Origin: Anaeromusa acidaminophila DSM 3853
Lineage (GTDB): Bacteria; Bacillota; Negativicutes; Anaeromusales; Anaeromusaceae
Assembly: GCF_000374545.1 (NCBI RefSeq)
Contig: NZ_KB894585.1
Location: 1 to 64,000 of the forward strand
Direction of reading: 5' to 3'
Length of the DNA stretch: 64,000 bases
Positions 7,907 through 55,688 of this stretch are shown piece after piece (position 1 is the stretch's first letter; the number at the start of each line of letters is the position of its first letter). Below the pieces are notes generated by a model. That model had not been told where the DNA came from. It saw only the letters and a program-made list of their open reading frames with translations, and did not search any database. The position numbers and the translations under genes are program-made.

Positions 7907-8192
7907 AAACAAGAGAACCGGAGAATCTGAGGGTATGACTGAGGGTTATCTGGAAATAAGCCCCGGCGAAAGCCGGGGCTTATTTTATGGCTAAAAAAAG
8001 TGCGAAATTATTGAACCGGAGAACCAGAGTCACGAGAGGGTACGCAGGAGGGCTACGGGAAAACGGGAAACTTAACGAGGAGCATAGAGTGGGCTGCGGA
8101 GATGTTGTAATATGAACTTGGAGATTGCGGCCCTTGCTAAAAATTCGTAACCCTCCTGCGAACCCTCAGATTCTCATTTACTCTTGTTCAAT
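7907..8192. repeat. Family A repeat cluster, copy A2
   Basis: Two left-type arms (7907-7950, starting AAACAAGAGAACCGGAG, and 8011-8059, starting TTGAACCGGAGAACC) are followed by one right-type arm (8145-8192, ending ACTCTTGTTCAAT). The second left arm and the right arm share the complementary core CGCAGGAGGG / CCCTCCTGCG. An intrinsic terminator interrupts the two left arms. The loop between arms (8060-8144) contains no gene. Together with the secA promoter, this accounts for the 404-bp gap between hpf and secA. Confidence 0.75.
7956..7986 (+). terminator. Intrinsic terminator after hpf
   Basis: AAGCCCCGGC and GCCGGGGCTT form a perfect stem around a GAAA tetraloop, followed by ATTTT. It sits within the family A cluster, 64 bp after the hpf stop. 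Confidence 0.9.
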
Positions 8193-8215
8193 CTTTCGTA
8201 AGTCTTGTGTTCATT

Positions 8216-8244
8216 TTGACTTCTCAGGCGCCTTCTGCTAGAAT
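8216..8244 (+). promoter_or_regulatory. Promoter of secA
   Basis: TTGACT (8216-8221) and TAGAAT (8239-8244) with a 17-bp spacer, about 50 bp before the secA start, directly after the right arm of the family A cluster. Confidence 0.65.
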
Positions 8245-8296
8245 TGATAGATGGAATATAACGCCTTCGCGGCGATGTTTTGAGGAGTGATATAGC

Positions 8297-10804
8297 TTGT
8301 TCGGTTTCATTAAGAAACTCTTTGGAGACCCGAATGCAAAGACTATCCAACGGATGCAGCAGACGGTGGAGCAGATTAACGCCTTGGAGAAGGATTTGCA
8401 GAATTTTAGCGATGCTTCATTGGCAGCTAAGACGGAAGAATTCAAGCGACGCCTGGGAAATGGCGAGACGCTGGACGATTTATTGCCGGAAGCGTTCGCT
8501 GTGGCTAGGGAAGCTTCGCGGCGCGTGCTGGGCATGCGCCATTTTGACGTACAGTTGATGGGCGGCATGGTTCTGCATGAAGGCAATATCGCTGAAATGC
8601 GTACAGGAGAAGGTAAAACATTGGTGGCGACGCTGCCGGTATATTTGAATGCCTTGGCTGGCAAGGGCGTCCATGTCATTACGGTCAATGATTATTTGGC
8701 TCGCCGCGACAGCGAATGGATGGGGCAGTTGTATCAATTTTTGGGCTTGTCCGTGGGTACGATTTTGCACGGATTGACCTATGCTGATCGCAAGCATGCC
8801 TACGCCTGCGACGTTACTTACGGTACCAACAATGAATTCGGCTTTGACTATTTGCGTGACAATATGGTCATTTATGCGGACCAAATGGTGCAGCGTCCGT
8901 TGAATTTTGCGATTGTCGATGAAGTGGACAGCATTTTGGTGGATGAAGCGAGAACGCCTTTGATTATTTCCGGTCCTGGCGAGCGCGCTACAGACATTTA
9001 TGCCAAAGTGGCTAAAGTAGTGGAAAAGTTGGAAAAAGAAGCCGACTTTACATTGGACGAAAAAGCGAAACAGGTATTGCCGACCGAGGCTGGTATTGCC
9101 AAAGCGGAAAAACTGCTGGGCGTGACCAATATGTACGCCGGCGAAAACATGCAGCTGTCTCATTATTTCAACCAAGCCTTGCGGGCGAAGGCGCTCATGG
9201 AGCGGGACCGCGATTACGTGGTGAAAGACGGCGAAGTCGTTATTGTTGACGAGTTCACTGGCCGTTTGATGTTCGGACGTCGTTACGGCGACGGATTGCA
9301 TCAGGCTATTGAAGCTAAAGAAGGCGTGAAAATTCAGCGGGAAAGCCAAACTCTGGCTTCGATTACCTTCCAGAACTACTTCCGCATGTATGAGAAATTG
9401 GCTGGGATGACCGGTACGGCGAAGACCGAAGAACCGGAATTCCAGAAGATTTATAATCTGGACGTAGTTGTGTTGCCGACGAACCAGGCGGTAGTGAGCG
9501 AAAACTTCCCGGATGTGGTTTTCAAAACGCAGAAAGCTAAATATAAGGCGGCCGTGCAAGAAATTGCCGAACGTCATGCCAAGGGGCAGCCGCTGTTGGT
9601 AGGCACTACCTCTATCAGTCAGTCGGAGGAAATGTCGGCGCTACTTAAGAAGCATGGCGTGCCGCATAATGTGTTGAATGCCAAGCATCATGATAAGGAA
9701 GCGGCAATTATTGCGCAGGCAGGACAAAAAGGCGCGGTAACTATTGCCACCAACATGGCTGGCCGTGGTACGGACATCAAGCTGGGCGAAGGCGTGCCGG
9801 AATTAGGCGGTCTGCATATCGTCGGCACGGAGCGTCATGAAAGCCGCCGTATTGACAATCAGCTGCGCGGCCGCTGTGGCCGTCAGGGCGACCCTGGCTC
9901 CAGCCGCTTCTACCTGTCATTAGAAGACGATTTGATGCGCATTTTTGGCTCGGATCATATTTCTACCATTATGGATAAGCTGGGCATGGAAGAAGACGAG
10001 CCTATCGAGCACAACATGGTCAGCAAAGCCATTGAAAATGCGCAGAAAAAAGTGGAAAACCGCAACTTTGAAATTCGTAAATACGTGTTGGAATACGACG
10101 ATGTCATGAATCAGCAGCGCGAAATCATCTATGCGCAGCGTAAACAGATTCTGCTGGGCGAAAATCTTCGGGAAAACATTTTGGCGATGATTGAGAAAAT
10201 TGCCGATCATGGTATTTCTCTCTATGCTGATGCCAATACGTATCCGGAGGATTGGGATTTGGCGGGCCTTATCAAGTTCTGCGAGGAATATTTTGCGCCG
10301 GAAGGTCGCTTGACGGTGGCTAAGCTGGAAGCTTGCAATCGCGAAGAGCTGCGTGAAGAAGTGCTGGCGGCGGCGCAAGAAGCCTACGAAGGCCGGGAAC
10401 GGCTCTTCGGCGAAGAAAACATGCGCGAACTGGAAAAGGTTATTATGCTCAAAGTGCTGGATAGCAAATGGATCGAGCATTTGGACGCCATGGACGGCTT
10501 GCGTGAGGGCATTGGATTGCGAGCGTACGGACAGAAAGATCCTTTGATTGAGTATAAAATTGAAGCATATGACATGTTCCAGCAATTGATGGAATACATC
10601 CAGGACGATATCGTCAAATATATGTTCCGGGTGAATATTATTTCGCAGCCCGAGGACCATCTGCAGCAGGCTACGGAAAGCCATGGGGAAGCAGATGAAA
10701 ATGCGCCCAAACAGCCGGTGGTAAATAAGGACAAAGTGGGGCGAAACGATCTTTGCCCTTGCGGCAGCGGGAAAAAGTACAAGAATTGCTGCGGCGTTAA
10801 CTAA
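8297..10804 (+). CDS. secA: Preprotein translocase ATPase SecA
   Basis: Motor that drives preproteins through SecYEG using ATP. The 835-residue product has the DEAD-type Walker A region [11 protein letters not shown] (about residue 100), the [15 protein letters not shown] segment, the preprotein cross-linking domain, helicase motif [29 protein letters not shown], and the C-terminal zinc-binding [14 protein letters not shown] that contacts SecB or ribosomes. The start is TTG 8297 with GAGGAG nine bases upstream. In most Firmicutes prfB follows directly; here a two-gene Fe-S operon lies between them. Confidence 0.98.
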
Positions 10805-38824: not shown

Positions 38825-39763
38825 ATGAAAGTTACAGTCGTCGGTGCAGGCAATGTAGGCGCAACATGCGCAAACGTTCTGGCTATTCGCGAGATTGCCA
38901 GCGAAGTGGTACTCCTTGATATCAAAGAAGGCGTTTCCGAAGGCAAAGCCATGGACATGATGCAGACTTCGCCTCTACTTGGCTTTGACACCTGTGTAGT
39001 AGGAAGCACTAATGATTATGCAAAAACAGCCGGTTCCGCAGTGGTTGTCATCACTTCCGGTTTGCCGCGTAAACCTGGCATGACCCGTGAAGAACTGATC
39101 GGCACCAATGCCGGTATCGTCAAAACGGTTGCTGAAAACATTCTCAAGCATTCTCCGAATGCTATCTTGATCATCGTCAGCAATCCGATGGATACCATGA
39201 CGTATCTGACCTTGAAAGCTACTGGCTTGCCGAAAAACCGCGTAATCGGCATGGGCGGCGCGCTGGACAGCTCTCGCTTCAAGTACTATCTCAGCCAGGC
39301 TCTGGGCCGTCCGTTGACCGACGTTCAGGGAACCGTTATTGGCGGTCATGGCGACACCACCATGATTCCGTTGACTCGTTTGGCTACCTACAATGGTTTG
39401 CCGGTATCCCAGTTCCTCGATGCCGCTGCTTTGGAAAAAGTTGCTGCTGACACCATGGTTGGCGGCGCTACGCTGACCAAGCTTCTGGGTACTTCCGCTT
39501 GGTACGCTCCGGGCGCTGCTGCAGCTATGCTGGTAGAGTCCATCGTTCGCGACGAGAAGAAAGTATTCCCTTGCTGTGTTTCCCTTGAAGGCGAATACGG
39601 CCAGGAAGACATCTGCATCGGCGTTCCGGTCGTTGTAGGTAAAAACGGCTGTGAAGAAATCATTGACTACAAACTCAATGCAGAAGAAAAAGATCTCTTC
39701 GAGAAGAGCGCTGCTGCTGTTCGCAAGATGAACCAAGTTCTTGCGGATATGAAAGTAATCTAA
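38825..39763 (+). CDS. mdh: Malate dehydrogenase (NAD-dependent, LDH-like type)
   Basis: Interconverts malate and oxaloacetate. The 312-residue product has the Rossmann motif GAGNVGAT (residues 7-14), Asp32 at the end of the second strand, which favours NAD, the active-site loop LPRKPGMTR with Arg82 and Arg88 (arginine at position 82 marks malate rather than lactate specificity), NPMD, and the catalytic histidine in GGHGDTT. ATG 38825 follows AAAAGGAGGGTACATATAAG. It is flanked by a candidate operator upstream and a strong terminator downstream. In Negativicutes this enzyme often works in the succinate/propionate branch. Confidence 0.95.
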   Translation: MKVTVVGAGNVGATCANVLAIREIASEVVLLDIKEGVSEGKAMDMMQTSPLLGFDTCVVGSTNDYAKTAGSAVVVITSGLPRKPGMTREELIGTNAGIVKTVAENILKHSPNAILIIVSNPMDTMTYLTLKATGLPKNRVIGMGGALDSSRFKYYLSQALGRPLTDVQGTVIGGHGDTTMIPLTRLATYNGLPVSQFLDAAALEKVAADTMVGGATLTKLLGTSAWYAPGAAAAMLVESIVRDEKKVFPCCVSLEGEYGQEDICIGVPVVVGKNGCEEIIDYKLNAEEKDLFEKSAAAVRKMNQVLADMKVI

Positions 39764-39778
39764 GCCATCTCTTAAAAG

Positions 39779-39822
39779 GAAAAAGCCTGTTCCGTCGCGA
39801 AATACGGAACAGGCTTTTTTGT
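39779..39822 (+). terminator. Intrinsic terminator after mdh
   Basis: AAGCCTGTTCCGT and ACGGAACAGGCTT form a 13-bp perfect stem around CGCGAAAT, followed by TTTTT. Confidence 0.93.
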
Positions 39823-40085: not shown

Positions 40086-40119
40086 ATTAAAATCTATACA
40101 TAGAAAGAAGGATGATTTT

Positions 40120-41130
40120 ATGGACATGAATTCATTACGTGAAGCCGCGCGGGAGCGTTTTGGCAAGGCTTGCCGGGTGTGCAAAATTTGTAATGGCGTG
40201 GCCTGCGCCGGAGAGGTTCCCGGCATGGGCGGCCTTGGAACCGGAGCGGCTTTTCAAAGCAATATGCAGGCGCTGGCTTTGCATCGGCTGCAGCAGCGCG
40301 TAGTGCACCAGATCAGTGAGCCGAAGCTGAGCTGCACGATTTTTGGACAAGAGCTGACAATGCCGATTTTGGGAGCGCCCATTGGCGGTATTGCATTCAA
40401 TTTAAATGATTTCTTGCCGGAAGCCGAGTATGCAGCGGCTATTGTGAACGGCTGCCTCCAGGCGGGAACGTTGGGCATGACCGGCGACGGTCCTAATCCG
40501 GGCGTATTTAACGGCGGCTTGGAGGCGGTTCGTTTGGCCGGCGGCCAGGGAATTCCCGTCTTGAAGCCCAGGGATAATGAGGCGGTTTTAGAGAAAATGC
40601 AGGAAGCCGCAGCCGCTGGTGCGATTGCAGTTGGTATGGATCTGGATGCAGCGGCGTTGATTAACATGACTCGCGCGGGTCAGCGGGTTGGGCCAAAAAC
40701 GAAAGAACAATTGGCGGAGTTAAAACGCCATGCGCCGCTACCATTCTTTGTGAAAGGAATTATGACGGAAGCCGATGCCGAAGCTTGCGCTTGGGCGGGA
40801 GTTGACGGTATTGTCGTTTCCAATCACGGCGGACGGGTGCTGGATCATACGCCTGGTACGGCAGAGGTGCTGCCGGAGATTGTAGAAGCTGTGGATGGCG
40901 CGTTGACGGTGCTGGTAGATGGCGGCGTACGTAGTGGTACGGATGTGCTGAAAATGCTGGCTTTGGGCGCCGACGCTGTTTTGATTGGACGTCCGCTGAC
41001 GGTTGGCGCCGTAGGCGGCGCTGCTGGGGTTGCGCTACTTTTAGAGCAAATGGCGGCGGAATTGCAGGCGGCGATGATCATGACTGGTACCGCGTCAGTA
41101 GAGGACGTAGCAGAGGATATTTTATGGTAA
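40120..41130 (+). CDS. FMN-dependent alpha-hydroxy-acid oxidizing protein with N-terminal cysteine cluster
   Basis: A 336-residue TIM-barrel flavoprotein of the lactate/glycolate oxidase family. FMN- and substrate-binding motifs are seen: PILGAPIGGIAFN, FFVKGIMTEADAE, the catalytic histidine and arginine in VSNHGGRVLDHTPGT, and LVDGGVRSGTDVLKMLALGADAVLIGRP. The N-terminus carries four cysteines (C18, C21, C24, C29; CRVCKICNGVAC), absent from classical lactate oxidase. In an anaerobe it is more likely a dehydrogenase than an oxidase. ATG 40120 follows AGAAGGATG; the long upstream frame runs through repeat DNA and is rejected. The next gene overlaps by 7 bp. Confidence 0.85.
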   Translation: MDMNSLREAARERFGKACRVCKICNGVACAGEVPGMGGLGTGAAFQSNMQALALHRLQQRVVHQISEPKLSCTIFGQELTMPILGAPIGGIAFNLNDFLPEAEYAAAIVNGCLQAGTLGMTGDGPNPGVFNGGLEAVRLAGGQGIPVLKPRDNEAVLEKMQEAAAAGAIAVGMDLDAAALINMTRAGQRVGPKTKEQLAELKRHAPLPFFVKGIMTEADAEACAWAGVDGIVVSNHGGRVLDHTPGTAEVLPEIVEAVDGALTVLVDGGVRSGTDVLKMLALGADAVLIGRPLTVGAVGGAAGVALLLEQMAAELQAAMIMTGTASVEDVAEDILW

Positions 41131-41654
41131 AAATCGAATTGGCTGCTAGAACCTTCTCCACATCTTGGGGGGTGATGACATCTTTGTGGTCGTCTCGAGG
41201 ACTTTGGGAACTTGGTTTTCCCCGCAAAACAGAAAAAGAGGCTTGGGCGGACCTGCGGTTTTCCCCGACAGCGGCGCAGGACTTGCAGGCGGAGGATATG
41301 GCGGAGTTAGCCTGGGAGGCGTTGGCGGCTCAACTGCAAACCTATTTCCAAGGTTTTCCTGTAGTTTTCGACGTACCCTTGGATTGGCGGGGATATACAT
41401 CTTTTCAGGAGAAAGCGTTGCGGTATGTAGCCTCGGTTCCTTATGGCTGCGTTTGCAGCTATGGAGAGGTGTCGAGGGCGATCGGCGTAGAGCAGGGGGC
41501 GCGCGCTGTCGGCGGAGCTATGCACGCTAACCGTATTCCTATCGTGGTTCCTTGTCACCGGGTTGTGGCTTCCGGCGGTAAGCTGGGCGGCTTTGGAGGC
41601 GGTTTGGAATTGAAGGAGGCCTTGTTGTTTTTAGAGCGCAACCTTGACAGCTAA
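41124..41654 (+). CDS. ogt: Methylated-DNA--protein-cysteine methyltransferase
   Basis: Repairs O6-alkylguanine by transferring the alkyl group to its own cysteine. The 176-residue product has a weakly conserved N-terminal domain and the C-terminal domain with TSFQEKALRYVASVPYG, the helix-turn-helix YGEVSRAIG, and the active site VPCHRVVA with acceptor Cys144. ATG 41124 overlaps the stop of the preceding oxidase gene, so the two are translationally coupled, although no functional link is obvious. Confidence 0.95.
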   Translation: MVKIELAARTFSTSWGVMTSLWSSRGLWELGFPRKTEKEAWADLRFSPTAAQDLQAEDMAELAWEALAAQLQTYFQGFPVVFDVPLDWRGYTSFQEKALRYVASVPYGCVCSYGEVSRAIGVEQGARAVGGAMHANRIPIVVPCHRVVASGGKLGGFGGGLELKEALLFLERNLDS

Positions 41655-41700: not shown

Positions 41701-41755
41701 AGAAGCAATAATGTCCAAAGAGGACGATGATTTTTGCAGTGAGGAAGGGATCGTT

Positions 41756-42100
41756 GTGTGCGGCTTGCTTTTGCGTATCATAGTTAATGCAGTCATTTTG
41801 TATTGGATGGTAGAATGGCTGCCGGAAATTTTTGTCGATACGTTTTGGTGCTTATTAGCGGCTTCGTTGGTGGTGGGGATAGCCAATGGCTTGGTGCGCA
41901 CCATTCTTTGCAAAATGAGTTGTCCTATTTCGTGGCGTACTTTGGGCGGGTTAACTTTTTTAACGAATTTGGTGACGCCAGCGGCGTTGCTCAAGGTGCT
42001 GCCGGGCGTGCAGGTAAGCGGTTTGTTTTTGCCGTTTTTAAGCATGGGCGTAGTGACCTTGTGCAGCTGCCTGCTGTCCGTGTATATCCAAGACCGGTAA
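41756..42100 (+). CDS. Holin-superfamily IV-like small membrane protein
   Basis: About 114 residues with four hydrophobic segments, beginning GLLLRIIVNAVILYWMVEWLP and containing GIANGLVRTILCKMSCPI. The pattern fits the 'phage holin family 4' group of chromosomal membrane proteins, which are widespread in Firmicutes without a phage context. Its function is unknown. GTG 41756 is preferred because GAGGAAGGG lies 6 nt upstream and the frame then begins at the first transmembrane helix; an ATG at 41711 would add 15 mostly acidic residues without a ribosome binding site. Confidence 0.65.
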   Translation: MCGLLLRIIVNAVILYWMVEWLPEIFVDTFWCLLAASLVVGIANGLVRTILCKMSCPISWRTLGGLTFLTNLVTPAALLKVLPGVQVSGLFLPFLSMGVVTLCSCLLSVYIQDR

Positions 42101-42110
42101 CGGAACAGGA

Positions 42111-42364
42111 TTGAACAAGAGAACCGGAGTCGCGTGAGGGCCCGAAGGAGTAGCATTATTTTAATTTAAAAATGCACGAGGAGATTGCTTCATTGCATTC
42201 GCAATGACCTTAAAGACGGCTTGGAAGCAAGTAGGCTATGTTTGATGAAAACTAACAAGCTTTGCGTCATTGCGAGGAGCGCGGCGACGCGGCAATCTCC
42301 TGATAAAACATTGCTTCGAATCCTCAGTCATGCCCTCAGGTTCTCCCGAGACTCTTGTTCAATC
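42111..42364. repeat. Family A long inverted repeat, copy A7, split by another element
   Basis: The left arm at 42111-42152 (TTGAACAAGAGAACCGGAG...GTGAGGGCCCGAAGGAG) and the right arm at 42316-42363 (ending CGAGACTCTTGTTCAAT) have outer ends that are exact complements: ATTGAACAAGAG and CTCTTGTTCAAT. The region between them contains the family C element. The 337-bp gap between the holin-like gene and the HAD gene is otherwise empty apart from the HAD ribosome binding site. Confidence 0.8.
42178..42302. repeat. Family C palindromic element (CATTGCGAGGAGC type), nested in A7
   Basis: About 125 bp bounded by GAGGAGATTGC (left) and GCAATCTCCTG (right). The subterminal complements are TTCGCAATGACC and GCGTCATTGCGAGG. 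The segment CATTGCGAGGAGCGCGGCGA is like a dispersed repeat core seen in many unrelated bacterial genomes. The interior (about 42210-42260) shows no gene. Confidence 0.75.
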
Positions 42365-42437: not shown

Positions 42438-43235
42438 TTGGCAATTCAATTAGTAGCAATCGATATGGATGGGACGTTGTTGACAGATAAGCTGGAAGTT
42501 TCACCAAGAACGGCGAAGGCAATTCAAGCGGCGCAGCAACAAGGAGTGACGGTGACAATAGCCACGGGGCGCATGTTTCAGTCGGCTAAACCGTTCGCGG
42601 AACAATTGGGCGTAGATGTGCCGTTGATTACCTATAACGGCGCCTTGGTAAAGTCTTGCCGCTCCGGCGAGGTTTGGCATGAAGAATTGCTGCCCATGGA
42701 TACTACGTTGGCGGTGTTGGCGTATTTTCGCGAGCGCGGCTGGTATATTCAGACGTATGTCGATGACGAATTTTATGTGCGAGACTATTCGGCGGAGGCC
42801 CGCGCGTATGAAGCGGTGTCCGGTATTTCACCGCATGTGGTAGGCGAGGACGTATTTGCGCCTACCAAGGAGCCCCTTAAGCTTTTGACGTTGGCGGAAC
42901 CGGAACATTTAGACGCTATTACGCCCGTGCTGAAAGAGCGCTTTGGCGATACAGTGTGCTTTACGCGAGCTAAAAACCATATGATCGAGATGGTGAATCC
43001 AGCGGTAAATAAAGGCCGAGGCGTTGCGATGCTGGCCAAGCGTTTGGGGATTTCTCAACAAGATATTATGGTACTGGGAGATTCGGAAAATGATATGGCT
43101 ATGCTGACCTATGCGGGCCTAGGAGTAGCTATGGATAATGCCGACGACAAAGTAAAAGAAGTCGCGGATGCGGTAACAGAGGACAACAACCGGGATGGCG
43201 TCGCCTTGGCTATTGAAAAATATGTGCTGAGATAA
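42438..43235 (+). CDS. Cof-type HAD-superfamily phosphatase
   Basis: A 265-residue sugar-phosphate or nucleotide phosphatase of the Cof/YidA type. HAD motif I is AIDMDGTLLTD (about residue 9), motif II includes TIATGR, motif III is K(200 region)GRGVAMLAKRLG, and motif IV is VLGDSENDMAML; the C2 cap lies between. The substrate cannot be predicted. The start is TTG 42438, with AAAGGATG nine bases upstream. A strong terminator shared with the convergent regulator gene follows. Confidence 0.93.
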   Translation: MAIQLVAIDMDGTLLTDKLEVSPRTAKAIQAAQQQGVTVTIATGRMFQSAKPFAEQLGVDVPLITYNGALVKSCRSGEVWHEELLPMDTTLAVLAYFRERGWYIQTYVDDEFYVRDYSAEARAYEAVSGISPHVVGEDVFAPTKEPLKLLTLAEPEHLDAITPVLKERFGDTVCFTRAKNHMIEMVNPAVNKGRGVAMLAKRLGISQQDIMVLGDSENDMAMLTYAGLGVAMDNADDKVKEVADAVTEDNNRDGVALAIEKYVLR

Positions 43236-51960: not shown

Positions 51961-53325
51961 ATGAATATACATTCTTTTAGCTTAAACGGGATGCATATCC
52001 TGTTGGATGTCAATAGCGGCGCTGTCCATGTGGTGGACGAGATGATTAGCGACATCATGAACGTATTTGACGGCGGCAATGACGAAGCGGTGCTGGCGTC
52101 TTTGTCGGAGCAATACAGTGAAACGGAACTGCGCGAAGCGCTGGCTGAGATGCATGAGCTGATTGCCGAGGAAAAATTGTTTACCCCCGCGTTGGAGGTG
52201 CCGCCTACCTTTAAGGAGGAGCCTATCCTTAAATCCTTGTGCCTCCATGTGGCCCATGACTGCAATCTTCGTTGTCGTTACTGTTTTGCCGGTACTGGCG
52301 ACTTCGGCCACAGCCGGGGTTTGATGTCTGCGGAAGTAGGCAAGAAGGCTATTGATTTTCTCTTAGAAAAAAGCGGCAGCCGTCGCCATTTGGAAATCGA
52401 CTTTTTTGGCGGCGAGCCTTTGATGAATTTTGACGTGGTAAAAGAATTGACTGCCTATGTGCGGCGCAGAGAGCAAGAAGCCGGCAAGGAAGTCAAACTG
52501 ACGTTGACGACGAATGCGGTGTTGTTGCGGGATGAGGAGCTTCGCTTCTTGAATGAAGAGGGTATTTCCTTGGTGCTTAGCCTGGACGGACGTAAGGAAG
52601 TTCATGACTATATGCGTCCTAATGCCGGCGGCAATGGCAGCTACGAAACGGTATTGTCGAATATTGACAAAGCCATTCGTTTGCGGAATGACCAAAACTA
52701 CTATTTGCGCGGCACCTTTACAGCGCATAACCTCGATTTTGCAGCGGATGTACTGGATATGGCCGATCGCGGCTATACGCAATTGTCCGTAGAGCCGGTA
52801 GTGGCGGAAGATGAGGCGGACTATGCCTTGAAAGAAGAGCACTTGCCGGAACTATTCCGGCAGTATGAATTGTTGGCGAAAGAATACTTGGAACGCAAGA
52901 TGAGGGGCGAAGGGTTTGATTTTTTCCACTTCAATGTGGATATCGAGAACGGTCCTTGCGTAGCTAAGCGTCTCAGCGGCTGCGGCGCCGGCCACGAGTA
53001 TCTGGCGGTCACGCCGCAAGGAGAATTCTATCCGTGCCATCAGTTTGTCGGCCGCGAGGCGTATCGCCTGGGTTCCGTAGACGAAGGCATTGTTAATGAA
53101 GAACTGCCTTGGACGTTTCGGCGGGCCCATGTGCTGGCTAAGGAAGAATGCAGCCAATGCTGGGCGCGGTTTTATTGCAGCGGCGGCTGCCATGCTAATG
53201 CTGACGCTTTCCACGGCTGTTTGGAAAAGCCGTATGAGCTTGGTTGCAAGCTGCAGAAAAAACGCTTGGAGTGCGCCTTGATGGTGCAGGCGGCGCTGGC
53301 TTTGGCGAAACGGCAGGATTCTTAA
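51961..53325 (+). CDS. scfB: SCIFF maturase, radical SAM/SPASM enzyme
   Basis: Cross-links the SCIFF peptide by forming thioethers. The 454-residue product has an N-terminal peptide-recognition region (about 1-85, a RiPP-recognition-element-like fold), the radical SAM cluster motif C101-NLR-C105-RY-C108, FFGGEPLMNF, and a C-terminal SPASM domain with CGAGHEYLAVTPQGEFYPCHQFVG and CSQCWARFYCSGGCHANA, expected to bind two further [4Fe-4S] clusters. ATG 51961 follows GAAAGGAAAGACC; the upstream extension overlaps the peptide gene in another frame and is rejected. An intrinsic terminator follows. Confidence 0.95.
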   Translation: MNIHSFSLNGMHILLDVNSGAVHVVDEMISDIMNVFDGGNDEAVLASLSEQYSETELREALAEMHELIAEEKLFTPALEVPPTFKEEPILKSLCLHVAHDCNLRCRYCFAGTGDFGHSRGLMSAEVGKKAIDFLLEKSGSRRHLEIDFFGGEPLMNFDVVKELTAYVRRREQEAGKEVKLTLTTNAVLLRDEELRFLNEEGISLVLSLDGRKEVHDYMRPNAGGNGSYETVLSNIDKAIRLRNDQNYYLRGTFTAHNLDFAADVLDMADRGYTQLSVEPVVAEDEADYALKEEHLPELFRQYELLAKEYLERKMRGEGFDFFHFNVDIENGPCVAKRLSGCGAGHEYLAVTPQGEFYPCHQFVGREAYRLGSVDEGIVNEELPWTFRRAHVLAKEECSQCWARFYCSGGCHANADAFHGCLEKPYELGCKLQKKRLECALMVQAALALAKRQDS

Positions 53326-53334
53326 AGTGAAAAA

Positions 53335-53368
53335 GAGAAGTGACTATCTATGTGATAGTCACTTTTTT
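53335..53368 (+). terminator. Intrinsic terminator after the SCIFF maturase gene
   Basis: AAGTGACTATC and GATAGTCACTT form a perfect stem around TATGT, followed by TTTTC. Confidence 0.9.
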
Positions 53369-53393
53369 CTTATTGTTTTGGAGGCAGTCGTAT

Positions 53394-55688
53394 ATGGAAG
53401 ATGGTAAAGAGCGCTGGCAGGTATTGGTGGAAGGCATTGTGCAGGGAGTGGGATTTCGCCCTTTTGTTCATAACCTGGCCCAGGAGCTGCAATTAGCAGG
53501 CTTTGTTTGCAATACGGGGGCTGGCGTGCTGGCGGAGGTTGAGGGGGAGGCCGCTTCGCTGCAAGAGTTTATGCAGCGGTTAGAGGCGGAAGCGCCGCCG
53601 ATGGCTTTGGTGGAGAGAATAGAATGCCAAGTCATGCAAGCGACAGGGGAAAATAAGTTCGTTATCAAGCAAAGCCTTGCCGGGGAGACACTGACTCTTG
53701 TTTCGCCGGATATGGCTACCTGTGCCGAGTGTCAAAGAGAATTACTGGAGCCGACAGATCGACGGTATCGTTACGCTTTTATTAACTGTACCCATTGCGG
53801 GCCACGCTATACGATTATCAAGGATCTTCCGTATGACCGGCCGCAGACGACGATGGCCGGATTTTTCATGTGCCAAGCATGTCAAGAAGAGTACGAGAGT
53901 GCTGCTGATCGTCGGTTTCATGCGCAGCCCAACGCCTGCGCCGTCTGCGGCCCGGCGTATCGACTGATCGATGCGACGGGAACGGACTTTCTACTGGAAG
54001 CGGGGGAAGATATCTTCCAAGGGGCCCGGCGCAAAGTGAAAGAGGGAGCGATTTTAGCGGTCAAGGGCATTGGGGGGTATCACTTGGCTTGTGACGCCAA
54101 ACAGCAAGAAGCGGTGCGCCGATTGCGGCGGCGTAAAGGAAGAGAAAAAAAGCCGTTAGCGGTGATGTGCCGCGAAATGGAACAAGTGCGTAAGCTCTGT
54201 TATGTGTCGCCGCAGGAAGAAAAACTGCTGCTTTCTCCAGCGCGGCCCGTGGTGTTGCTGCGAAAAAGATACGGGGAATTTGTGGCGGAAGAGGTGGCGC
54301 CTGGAAACGATTATTTAGGCGTGATGCTGCCCTATGCTCCGGTGCATTGGCTGTTGTTGGAGAAAACAGGTGTCTGGGTCATGACTAGCGGCAATGCCAG
54401 CGGAGAGCCAATGGTGCGGGATGAAACGGAGGCGCTTGCTTGCTTGGGCGGTTTGGCTGATTTTTTCTTAATGCATAATCGCTCGATTTGCCGAGGCGTG
54501 GATGATTCTGTTGCGCGCGTGTTGCAGGGAGACGTGCAATTGTTGCGCCGCGGGCGCGGATATGCGCCGCGGCCGATTCGTCTGCCTTTTGAGATGCCGT
54601 CTCTTTTGAGTGCGGGAGGCGAACTGAAGAATACGTTTTGCCTGACTCGGGGCGCCTATGCTTTTATGAGTCCTCACATCGGCGATATGGCCAGTGAGGC
54701 TACCTATGATTCATTTGTTTCGCTTGTAGCGCATTTGGAATGTCTTTTTAAGATAAAACCGAAAGCGGTAGCTTATGATTCGCACCCGGCGTATTTGACC
54801 GGACAATATGCGCAAAAGAGCAAACTGCCGCATTTTCCTGTGCAGCATCATCATGCGCATGCGGCAGCGGTGATGGCGGAACACAGTCTGAAAGGACCTG
54901 CGTTAGCCTTAGTTTTTGACGGAACTGGGTATGGAGATGACGGAAAGCTTTGGGGCGGTGAATTTTTGCTGGCTCAGTACGAGGATTTTCAACGGCTGGC
55001 GCATTTTTCCTATCGGCCGTTGCCGGGAGGGGAACAGGCGGTGCGGCAGCCTTGGCGTTTGGCGGCCTGGGTTTGGCAAGAAGTGTTCGGGAGTGGGGAA
55101 GCTTTGACCAAAGCGCCTTTCCCGGAGGGATGGCGAACGCTCATGCAGGCGGTATGCAGCGGTTTGGCAGCGCCCCACTCCTCTAGCGTCGGGCGTTTGT
55201 TTGATGCGGCGTCAGCTATTTTAGAAGTATGCCCGGAAAGCCATTATGAGGGGCAGGCGGCCATTGAATTGGAACAGCTTGCAGCCGGAAACGGCACTGC
55301 AGGGATAGCGCTAGCAGGCTGTCGTTTGCGGACGGAAGAGGAAACCTGGCAGGTGGATGCTGCGCCTTTACTGGCTTCGTTGCTGGAGAAACACCTTCAA
55401 GGAGAAAACGCGGCGGCTTTGGCGGCTGCATTTCACCAGACGTTGGGGCAAGCGGTATTGGATATGACTTGCCTTTTGGCTCAAAAGCACAAGGTGAATC
55501 AAGTCGTGCTGGGAGGCGGTGTTTGGCAGAACGCCTTACTGCAGCAGCAGGTGCGGCAAGGACTGAAGGAGGCAGGTTTAAAGGCGTATATGCCGGTGCA
55601 ACTGCCGGTCAACGACGGCGGCCTGGCTTACGGTCAGGCCGTAGTGGCCGGGGCTATTTTGAGGCAGCGAGGTTCTCTTATTCGTTAG
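53394..55688 (+). CDS. hypF: Hydrogenase maturation carbamoyltransferase HypF
   Basis: Converts carbamoyl phosphate to a carbamoyl group on HypE for the cyanide ligands of nickel-iron hydrogenase. The 764-residue product contains an acylphosphatase domain (about 8-95, GIVQGVGFRPFVHNLA), zinc fingers (CAECQRE, CTHCGPRYT, CQACQEEY, CAVCGP), a YrdC-like domain (about 200-385) and a Kae1-like domain (about 400-764, HHHAHAAAVMAEH, FDGTGYGDDG, VVLGGGVWQN). ATG 53394 follows TTGGAGGCAGTCGTAT; upstream codons overlap a terminator. The 75-residue hypC gene begins 67 bp downstream. Confidence 0.97.
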   Translation: MEDGKERWQVLVEGIVQGVGFRPFVHNLAQELQLAGFVCNTGAGVLAEVEGEAASLQEFMQRLEAEAPPMALVERIECQVMQATGENKFVIKQSLAGETLTLVSPDMATCAECQRELLEPTDRRYRYAFINCTHCGPRYTIIKDLPYDRPQTTMAGFFMCQACQEEYESAADRRFHAQPNACAVCGPAYRLIDATGTDFLLEAGEDIFQGARRKVKEGAILAVKGIGGYHLACDAKQQEAVRRLRRRKGREKKPLAVMCREMEQVRKLCYVSPQEEKLLLSPARPVVLLRKRYGEFVAEEVAPGNDYLGVMLPYAPVHWLLLEKTGVWVMTSGNASGEPMVRDETEALACLGGLADFFLMHNRSICRGVDDSVARVLQGDVQLLRRGRGYAPRPIRLPFEMPSLLSAGGELKNTFCLTRGAYAFMSPHIGDMASEATYDSFVSLVAHLECLFKIKPKAVAYDSHPAYLTGQYAQKSKLPHFPVQHHHAHAAAVMAEHSLKGPALALVFDGTGYGDDGKLWGGEFLLAQYEDFQRLAHFSYRPLPGGEQAVRQPWRLAAWVWQEVFGSGEALTKAPFPEGWRTLMQAVCSGLAAPHSSSVGRLFDAASAILEVCPESHYEGQAAIELEQLAAGNGTAGIALAGCRLRTEEETWQVDAAPLLASLLEKHLQGENAAALAAAFHQTLGQAVLDMTCLLAQKHKVNQVVLGGGVWQNALLQQQVRQGLKEAGLKAYMPVQLPVNDGGLAYGQAVVAGAILRQRGSLIR

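Follow-up and report, generated by a model that had tools for sequence, protein, structure and literature searches.

Four N-terminal cysteines define an anaerobe-biased subfamily of FMN_dh proteins and likely hold an iron-sulfur cluster

What do four closely spaced cysteines do in front of a flavin-binding barrel that resembles lactate oxidase, and why does the gene overlap one for DNA alkyl repair? These questions are raised by a gene at 40120..41130 (+) in a 64,000-nucleotide stretch of DNA from Anaeromusa acidaminophila DSM 3853, the whole of which is called the window here. The open reading frame, the Pfam match and an AF2 model identify the product as a 336-residue FMN_dh (PF01070) protein with an N-terminal four-cysteine motif. 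Its start codon is the ATG at 40120 and its stop codon the TAA at 41128-41130, and a ribosome-binding-like AAGGA (40108..40112, +) can be read in the sequence 7 bases 5' of the ATG. A 393-residue version from an upstream TTG is possible on paper; the ATG at 40120 is the start position in relatives. The cysteines C18, C21, C24 and C29 lie where the earlier note had placed them, encoded at 40171..40206 (+), and are the proposed ligands of a [4Fe-4S] cluster. The codon of K212, a lysine that alignments show to be conserved in the family, is located at 40753..40755 (+), and the codons of H236-G-G-R239 at 40825..40836 (+). We take K212 to be the FMN-side lysine, and H236 and R239 to be the catalytic histidine and the substrate-carboxylate arginine of the FMN_dh superfamily. 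The same genome contains a second family copy (G000:C2:16216-17211) with 40% identity and the same cysteines. The PF01070 places found in this genome are these two family genes and an IDI2-like gene, with no classical FMN_dh gene among them.

The protein belongs to the PF01070 superfamily, as its Pfam FMN_dh match reaches 228.8 bits against a curated cut-off of 24.9. The AF2 model has a mean pLDDT of 96.1 and a pTM of 0.94, and VIA-align superimposes it on human glycolate oxidase (2rdt) with a Z of 38.1 and an rmsd of 2.3 Å over 311 residues, showing the (beta/alpha)8 glycolate-oxidase fold. The closest folds are hydroxyacid oxidase 1 and mandelate oxidase. The complete FMN TIM barrel that had been claimed from the sequence is borne out by the Pfam, AF2 and VIA-align results. 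Across an alignment of 81 sequences (A2), residues K149, P150, D174, D176, K212, H236, R239 and R291 are invariant, and the catalytic lysine, histidine and arginine (K212, H236 and R239) align to those of Escherichia coli LldD, including its HGGR. LldD shares with the window protein the PF01070 barrel, the SNHGGR segment and the FMN-phosphate segments (hhalign, 31% identity over 291 columns), but it lacks the cysteine motif, has Tyr24 instead, and has a much longer loop 4 (396 versus 336 residues in total). The first pair aligned by hhalign is G37 of the query with G27 of LldD, which puts the cysteine segment in the place of the LldD stretch FLFHY24MD that holds Tyr24.

The active site differs from that of the classical oxidases. 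Equivalents of LldD Tyr24, Tyr129 and Arg164 are missing in the family, nothing matches the tyrosine of the LldD QLY segment, and loop 4 is about 16 residues long instead of about 70. The family therefore does not carry all seven active-site residues of a classical S-2-hydroxyacid oxidase (EC 1.1.3.15). In the part of a published EC 1.1.3.15 screen that reports these residues, 12 of 14 active FMN_dh proteins had all seven, and at least one was absent in 8 of 10 inactive proteins (PMC8491902). Human glycolate oxidase (hydroxyacid oxidase 1, 2rdt) and 4-hydroxymandelate oxidase (5zzp) resemble the model closely in fold (Z of 38.1 and 37.3), but have all seven residues and no cysteine cluster, at 30 to 34% identity. 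Both of these enzymes use oxygen as the acceptor. Since the Lys/His/Arg set is kept while the Tyr/Tyr/Arg set and the long loop 4 are lost, the protein is a member of the FMN_dh superfamily but not a classical oxidase. The model for L-lactate oxidase (TIGR02708) gives 124.9 against an equivalog cut-off of 645.5, and the LldD model (NF033901) gives 140.5 against a curated cut-off of 550. On these scores and the missing substrate residues, lactate oxidase was rejected as the function. Of the earlier description as a lactate-oxidase-like flavoprotein, the barrel stands and the function is not supported; "lactate oxidase" is the wrong name, because the other substrate tyrosine and the arginine are lost and loop 4 is short.

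The cysteines are conserved, as the earlier note had proposed to check in homologues. Among the 97 relatives fetched from 98 places in the phylum of the window (a contig-edge fragment, G193:C59, was left out), 96 carry CxxCxxCx4C exactly and in frame, and the 97th, a frame-shifted gene, carries it in the shifted frame. In a first set of loci (L001-L113), 115 profile matches comprised 112 family genes and three others, namely one half of a broken gene (L032) and two proteins labelled from their sequences as IDI2-like (L003) and NMO-like. The exact motif is present in 108 of the 112. Of the remaining four, L079 keeps all four cysteines with a one-residue insertion (CxxCxxCx5C), and L097, L103 and L111 (Spirochaetia, Heimdallarchaeota and Lokiarchaeota) show CxxYxxC with a shifted cysteine after it, keeping three of the four. 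These three form an Asgard/spirochaete clade with tyrosine at C21 and a displaced last cysteine. The alignments show that the motif is no chance occurrence. All four cysteines are invariant in alignment A1, built from 25 of 30 intact family genes listed (the near-copies L011, L026, L028, L029 and L030 were omitted; the query, L001, appears as P0001). In A2, three of them (C18, C24 and C29) never vary, and C21 is at least 90% conserved. We note that the gene at L032 is interrupted by an internal TGA and the one at L202 by a frameshift, either of which may be an assembly error.

The spacing C18-x2-C21-x2-C24-x4-C29 fits a metal site, as had been suggested, and CxxCxxC is the core typical of ferredoxin-like clusters. 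At the level of sequence, the family has the conserved cysteine ligand set of an iron-sulfur flavoprotein. The sequence comparisons confirm that the four cysteines define a wide and anaerobe-biased subfamily within FMN_dh. A RefSeq-style record labels one member "alpha-hydroxy-acid oxidizing protein", a name that hides the cysteine motif. No published description of the motif was found in the accessible passages of the open-licence literature.

A search of 299 genomes from the phylum of the window detected the family in 88 (E of 1e-40 or better) and matches to the haem-copper oxidase subunit COX1 in 37. None of the 17 genomes with a strong COX1 match (above 400 bits, a line set after the scores were seen) has the family (Fisher p 0.004, with phylogeny ignored), and 11 of the 20 with weaker matches do. 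Among 299 Pseudomonadota genomes, the single positive is the genome on which the search was centred, that of the anaerobe Mesosutterella. Of 148 genomes from the phylum to which a Desulfovibrionales MAG belongs, 15 have the family, the centre included. The named loci come from clostridia, Negativicutes, sulfate reducers, Nitrospirota, Spirochaetota, Fusobacteriota and Asgard MAGs, which are mostly strict anaerobes. Tandem family genes occur in two places (L071:6934-7962 and 8001-9008; G138:C120:52059-53048 and 53132-54130).

The neighbourhood of the gene in the window answers the question of the overlap. Upstream lies a malate dehydrogenase gene (38825..39763, +; TIGR01763, 363.5 versus 351.85 bits), which is a neighbour outside the operon. 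The gap between the two genes contains a terminator-like hairpin (39779..39820, +) with a fold z-score of -7.05 and none of 200 shuffles as good, which is absent from the list of the consensus scanner; read-through from malate dehydrogenase into the FMN gene is therefore unlikely. Downstream, an ogt-type methylated-DNA-protein-cysteine methyltransferase gene (DNA_binding_1 / ogt superfamily; 41124..41654, +) shares 7 bases with the end of the FMN gene and is probably co-transcribed with it. Open reading frames and the loci of relatives place a 129-residue membrane protein (41711..42100, +) and a HAD hydrolase (42438..43235, +), presumably of the Cof type, in the same synteny block. An apparent interspersed repeat near 42267 was discarded, as neither the window nor the genome contains a second copy.

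In a tree from which second copies of places already used were left out, the window copy falls in a small clade with L034, L036, L035 and L005 (support 99/99). L036 repeats the order malate dehydrogenase, family gene, overlapping ogt, membrane protein and HAD hydrolase, and L035 keeps part of it; the ogt pairing is thus inherited synteny. Of 131 loci with a family gene, just three (the window, L034 and L036), all close relatives, have ogt next to it or nearby, and a DNA-repair link through ogt was rejected. The overlap with a DNA alkyl-repair gene is real, but the "odd pairing" that had been seen in it gives no functional clue, as it belongs to one synteny block.

No operon is shared by the whole family; the largest cluster of neighbours, an ABC ATPase, appears in 17 loci at scattered positions. 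Glycerate kinase was rejected as a partner, being near the family gene in 5 loci, too few. A Cof-type HAD hydrolase matches near the family gene in 12 loci, a number that includes extended copies of the same places. It is directly upstream in the distant relatives L016, L019, L023, L028, L047 and L049, and downstream in the clade of the window.

Lactate genes accompany a minority of the family. In 8 of 109 independent loci, genes of the lldP/lutB/glcD/glcF/lldR type lie beside the family gene, a count that combines 29 loci seen with 1.5 kb of flank and 80 seen with up to 8 kb; the wider flanks were taken for 20 of the 88 genomes, seven of which were chosen because lactate genes had already been seen nearby. 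These loci are L114-L120 (wider versions of L008, L010, L011, L017, L024, L030 and L021) and L061, and all eight fall inside a single 23-row group of the tree (support 96/81). They contain an LctP permease and GlcD-like, GlcF-like, LutC-like and LutB/LdhH-like genes, with an LldR-type regulator in some, in varying gene order; in L114, LctP and LdhH exceed the curated cut-offs. The lactate operons already contain dedicated L- and D-lactate dehydrogenases (L114). The window gene has no lactate-operon context; elsewhere its genome contains lactate permeases (four over the cut-off), GlcD-like genes and a LutB-like frame of 733 residues.

A few members appear to be exported together with an electron carrier. 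A regular expression detected a Tat-like signal in 4 of 131 family loci, and of three such members scanned, TIGR01409 exceeds its cut-off in L063 only. In three of the four (L063, L066 and L069), the very next gene encodes a triheme cytochrome c that matches Cytochrome_C7 and has three CxxCH motifs; L079 is without one. In L066 and L069, the triheme cytochrome c is joined to a solute-binding-like domain. L069 also has a gene for an NrfD-type membrane subunit and a second triheme gene, and L066 has an NrfD-like frame and HdrC/HdrB-like genes. Within 3 kb of any other family gene in the 131 loci, no true multihaem gene was found; the only other CxxCH-rich neighbours at that distance are two proteins of about 950 residues, which we take to be UvrA. 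The pairing of exported members with an electron carrier is the pattern expected if electrons exit by a one-electron route. The earlier suggestion of an anaerobic route to acceptors other than oxygen is favoured by the distribution (no family gene in the 17 genomes with a strong COX1 match, and one in 299 Pseudomonadota), the lactate operons, and the Tat-like members with their triheme cytochrome c genes.

Taken on balance, the window protein is probably an anaerobic FMN/[4Fe-4S] 2-hydroxyacid dehydrogenase, for which the fold, the conserved residues, the distribution and the gene neighbourhoods are shown, while we infer the type of cluster, the substrate, the direction of the reaction and the acceptor. 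That the four cysteines hold a [4Fe-4S] cluster is likely, and 2-hydroxyacid dehydrogenase activity with a non-oxygen acceptor is, more tentatively, likely too. FMN would occupy the TIM barrel as usual, and K212, H236 and R239 would be positioned for hydride abstraction from a 2-hydroxy acid. One [4Fe-4S] cluster on the N-terminal cysteines would sit beside the flavin, in the stretch that holds Tyr24 in LldD, accept electrons singly from reduced FMN and hand them on to a partner protein, much like the haem of flavocytochrome b2. Exported members may use cytochrome c as the acceptor, and cytoplasmic members, including the window protein, some soluble or membrane-bound carrier. L-lactate is the likely substrate for lactate-operon members, and a small 2-hydroxy acid would be the best guess for the window protein. 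In this proposal, the family resembles flavocytochrome b2 in combining an FMN_dh barrel with a second, N-terminal one-electron cofactor. In flavocytochrome b2, however, that cofactor is a haem in a separate domain, whereas here it would be held by a cysteine loop within the N-terminal segment of the barrel.

Several observations count against this dehydrogenase reading: the missing substrate residues, a lack that mostly accompanied inactivity in the published screen; the lactate dehydrogenases already present in the same operons; the small share of loci with lactate genes (8 of 109, the window gene not among them); the 11 genomes that have both the family and a weaker COX1 match; and the three-cysteine clade, in which the tyrosine at C21 leaves only three ligands. 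The metal could instead be a structural zinc that orders the N-terminal segment, with FMN electrons leaving otherwise. Four-cysteine sites often bind zinc, and when the N-terminal 45 residues were compared with the PDB, no solved protein with the motif was found; the best match reached only E 1.2, and the two best matches are presumably zinc proteins. We nevertheless consider zinc unlikely, since the CxxCxxC core is ferredoxin-like, an anaerobe-biased distribution would be unexpected for a zinc site, and Tat export with cytochrome c genes suggests a chain of redox cofactors. A redox switch or disulfide relay without any metal seems very improbable: four closely spaced cysteines could pair, but near-fixed spacing would be unusual for this in mostly cytoplasmic proteins of strict anaerobes, and the variant clade swaps one cysteine for tyrosine while the other three stay.

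The chemistry at the flavin may also differ. The family could catalyse some other reaction found in the wider FMN_dh superfamily, such as one resembling that of pre-mycofactocin synthase or of type 2 isopentenyl isomerase, with the lactate operons being incidental and fusions to ATP-grasp marking biosynthesis. In two loci (L040:3264-5513 and L080:6780-9074), the family domain is C-terminal to an ATP-grasp with an L-amino-acid-ligase C-terminal domain; these fusions, most loci being without lactate genes, and the absence of the substrate residues of classical hydroxyacid oxidases would all fit such a reaction. Set against it are the invariant HGGR and K212 and the scores of the pre-mycofactocin synthase MftD (TIGR03966, 123.7 versus an equivalog cut-off of 470.85) and IDI2 (44.3 versus 281.3) models, far under their cut-offs. 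The genome also apparently has a separate IDI2 (L003), and the fusions are limited to one Nitrospinota MAG and one Spirochaetes MAG that form one small clade of the tree. We regard this alternative as doubtful, and ATP-grasp was rejected as a general partner, its matches being limited to the two fused loci. A further variant, in which the cluster is not a relay alone, is that one of its irons, having an open site like that of the three-cysteine clade, binds the substrate beside FMN. It draws on the replacement of the carboxylate-holding Tyr24 by the cluster, and we give it little credence.

Members of the family may already have been met in published work on lactate metabolism. A PF01070 search of nine Desulfovibrionales genomes gave a family gene as the best match in all nine, and as the sole place in five. 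Judging from these genomes, Desulfovibrio vulgaris DVU2784, annotated as "FMN-dependent family" and named LldD in print, is probably a family member. The passages on this gene in PMC4481167 describe high expression on lactate, a 3.7-fold increase in a D-lactate dehydrogenase mutant and a decrease of about sixfold in another lactate mutant. DVU2784 also appears in PMC6456213 and PMC6470260, and the accessible passages on it in the three papers do not mention the cysteines. A comparison of lactate regions in the account of the Desulfovibrio gigas genome draws an FMN-dependent alpha-hydroxyacid dehydrogenase (PMC4287179, figure legend), and for gut anaerobes and sulfate reducers, the method of PMC8914356 treats PF01070 matches as ordinary FMN-dependent L-lactate dehydrogenase.

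The gene thus represents a large branch of the lactate/glycolate oxidase enzymes that has been overlooked and occurs chiefly in microbes that avoid oxygen; it is probably a so far undescribed subfamily of FMN-dependent 2-hydroxyacid dehydrogenases centred on anaerobes. If the substrate-binding iron were true, the family would have a combined flavin and iron-sulfur active site without counterpart in the FMN_dh superfamily. If the iron-sulfur dehydrogenase reading is true, the family would be the iron-sulfur counterpart of flavocytochrome b2, giving anaerobes a compact, oxygen-free way of oxidizing 2-hydroxyacids, and it would affect the interpretation of lactate metabolism in sulfate reducers and gut anaerobes.
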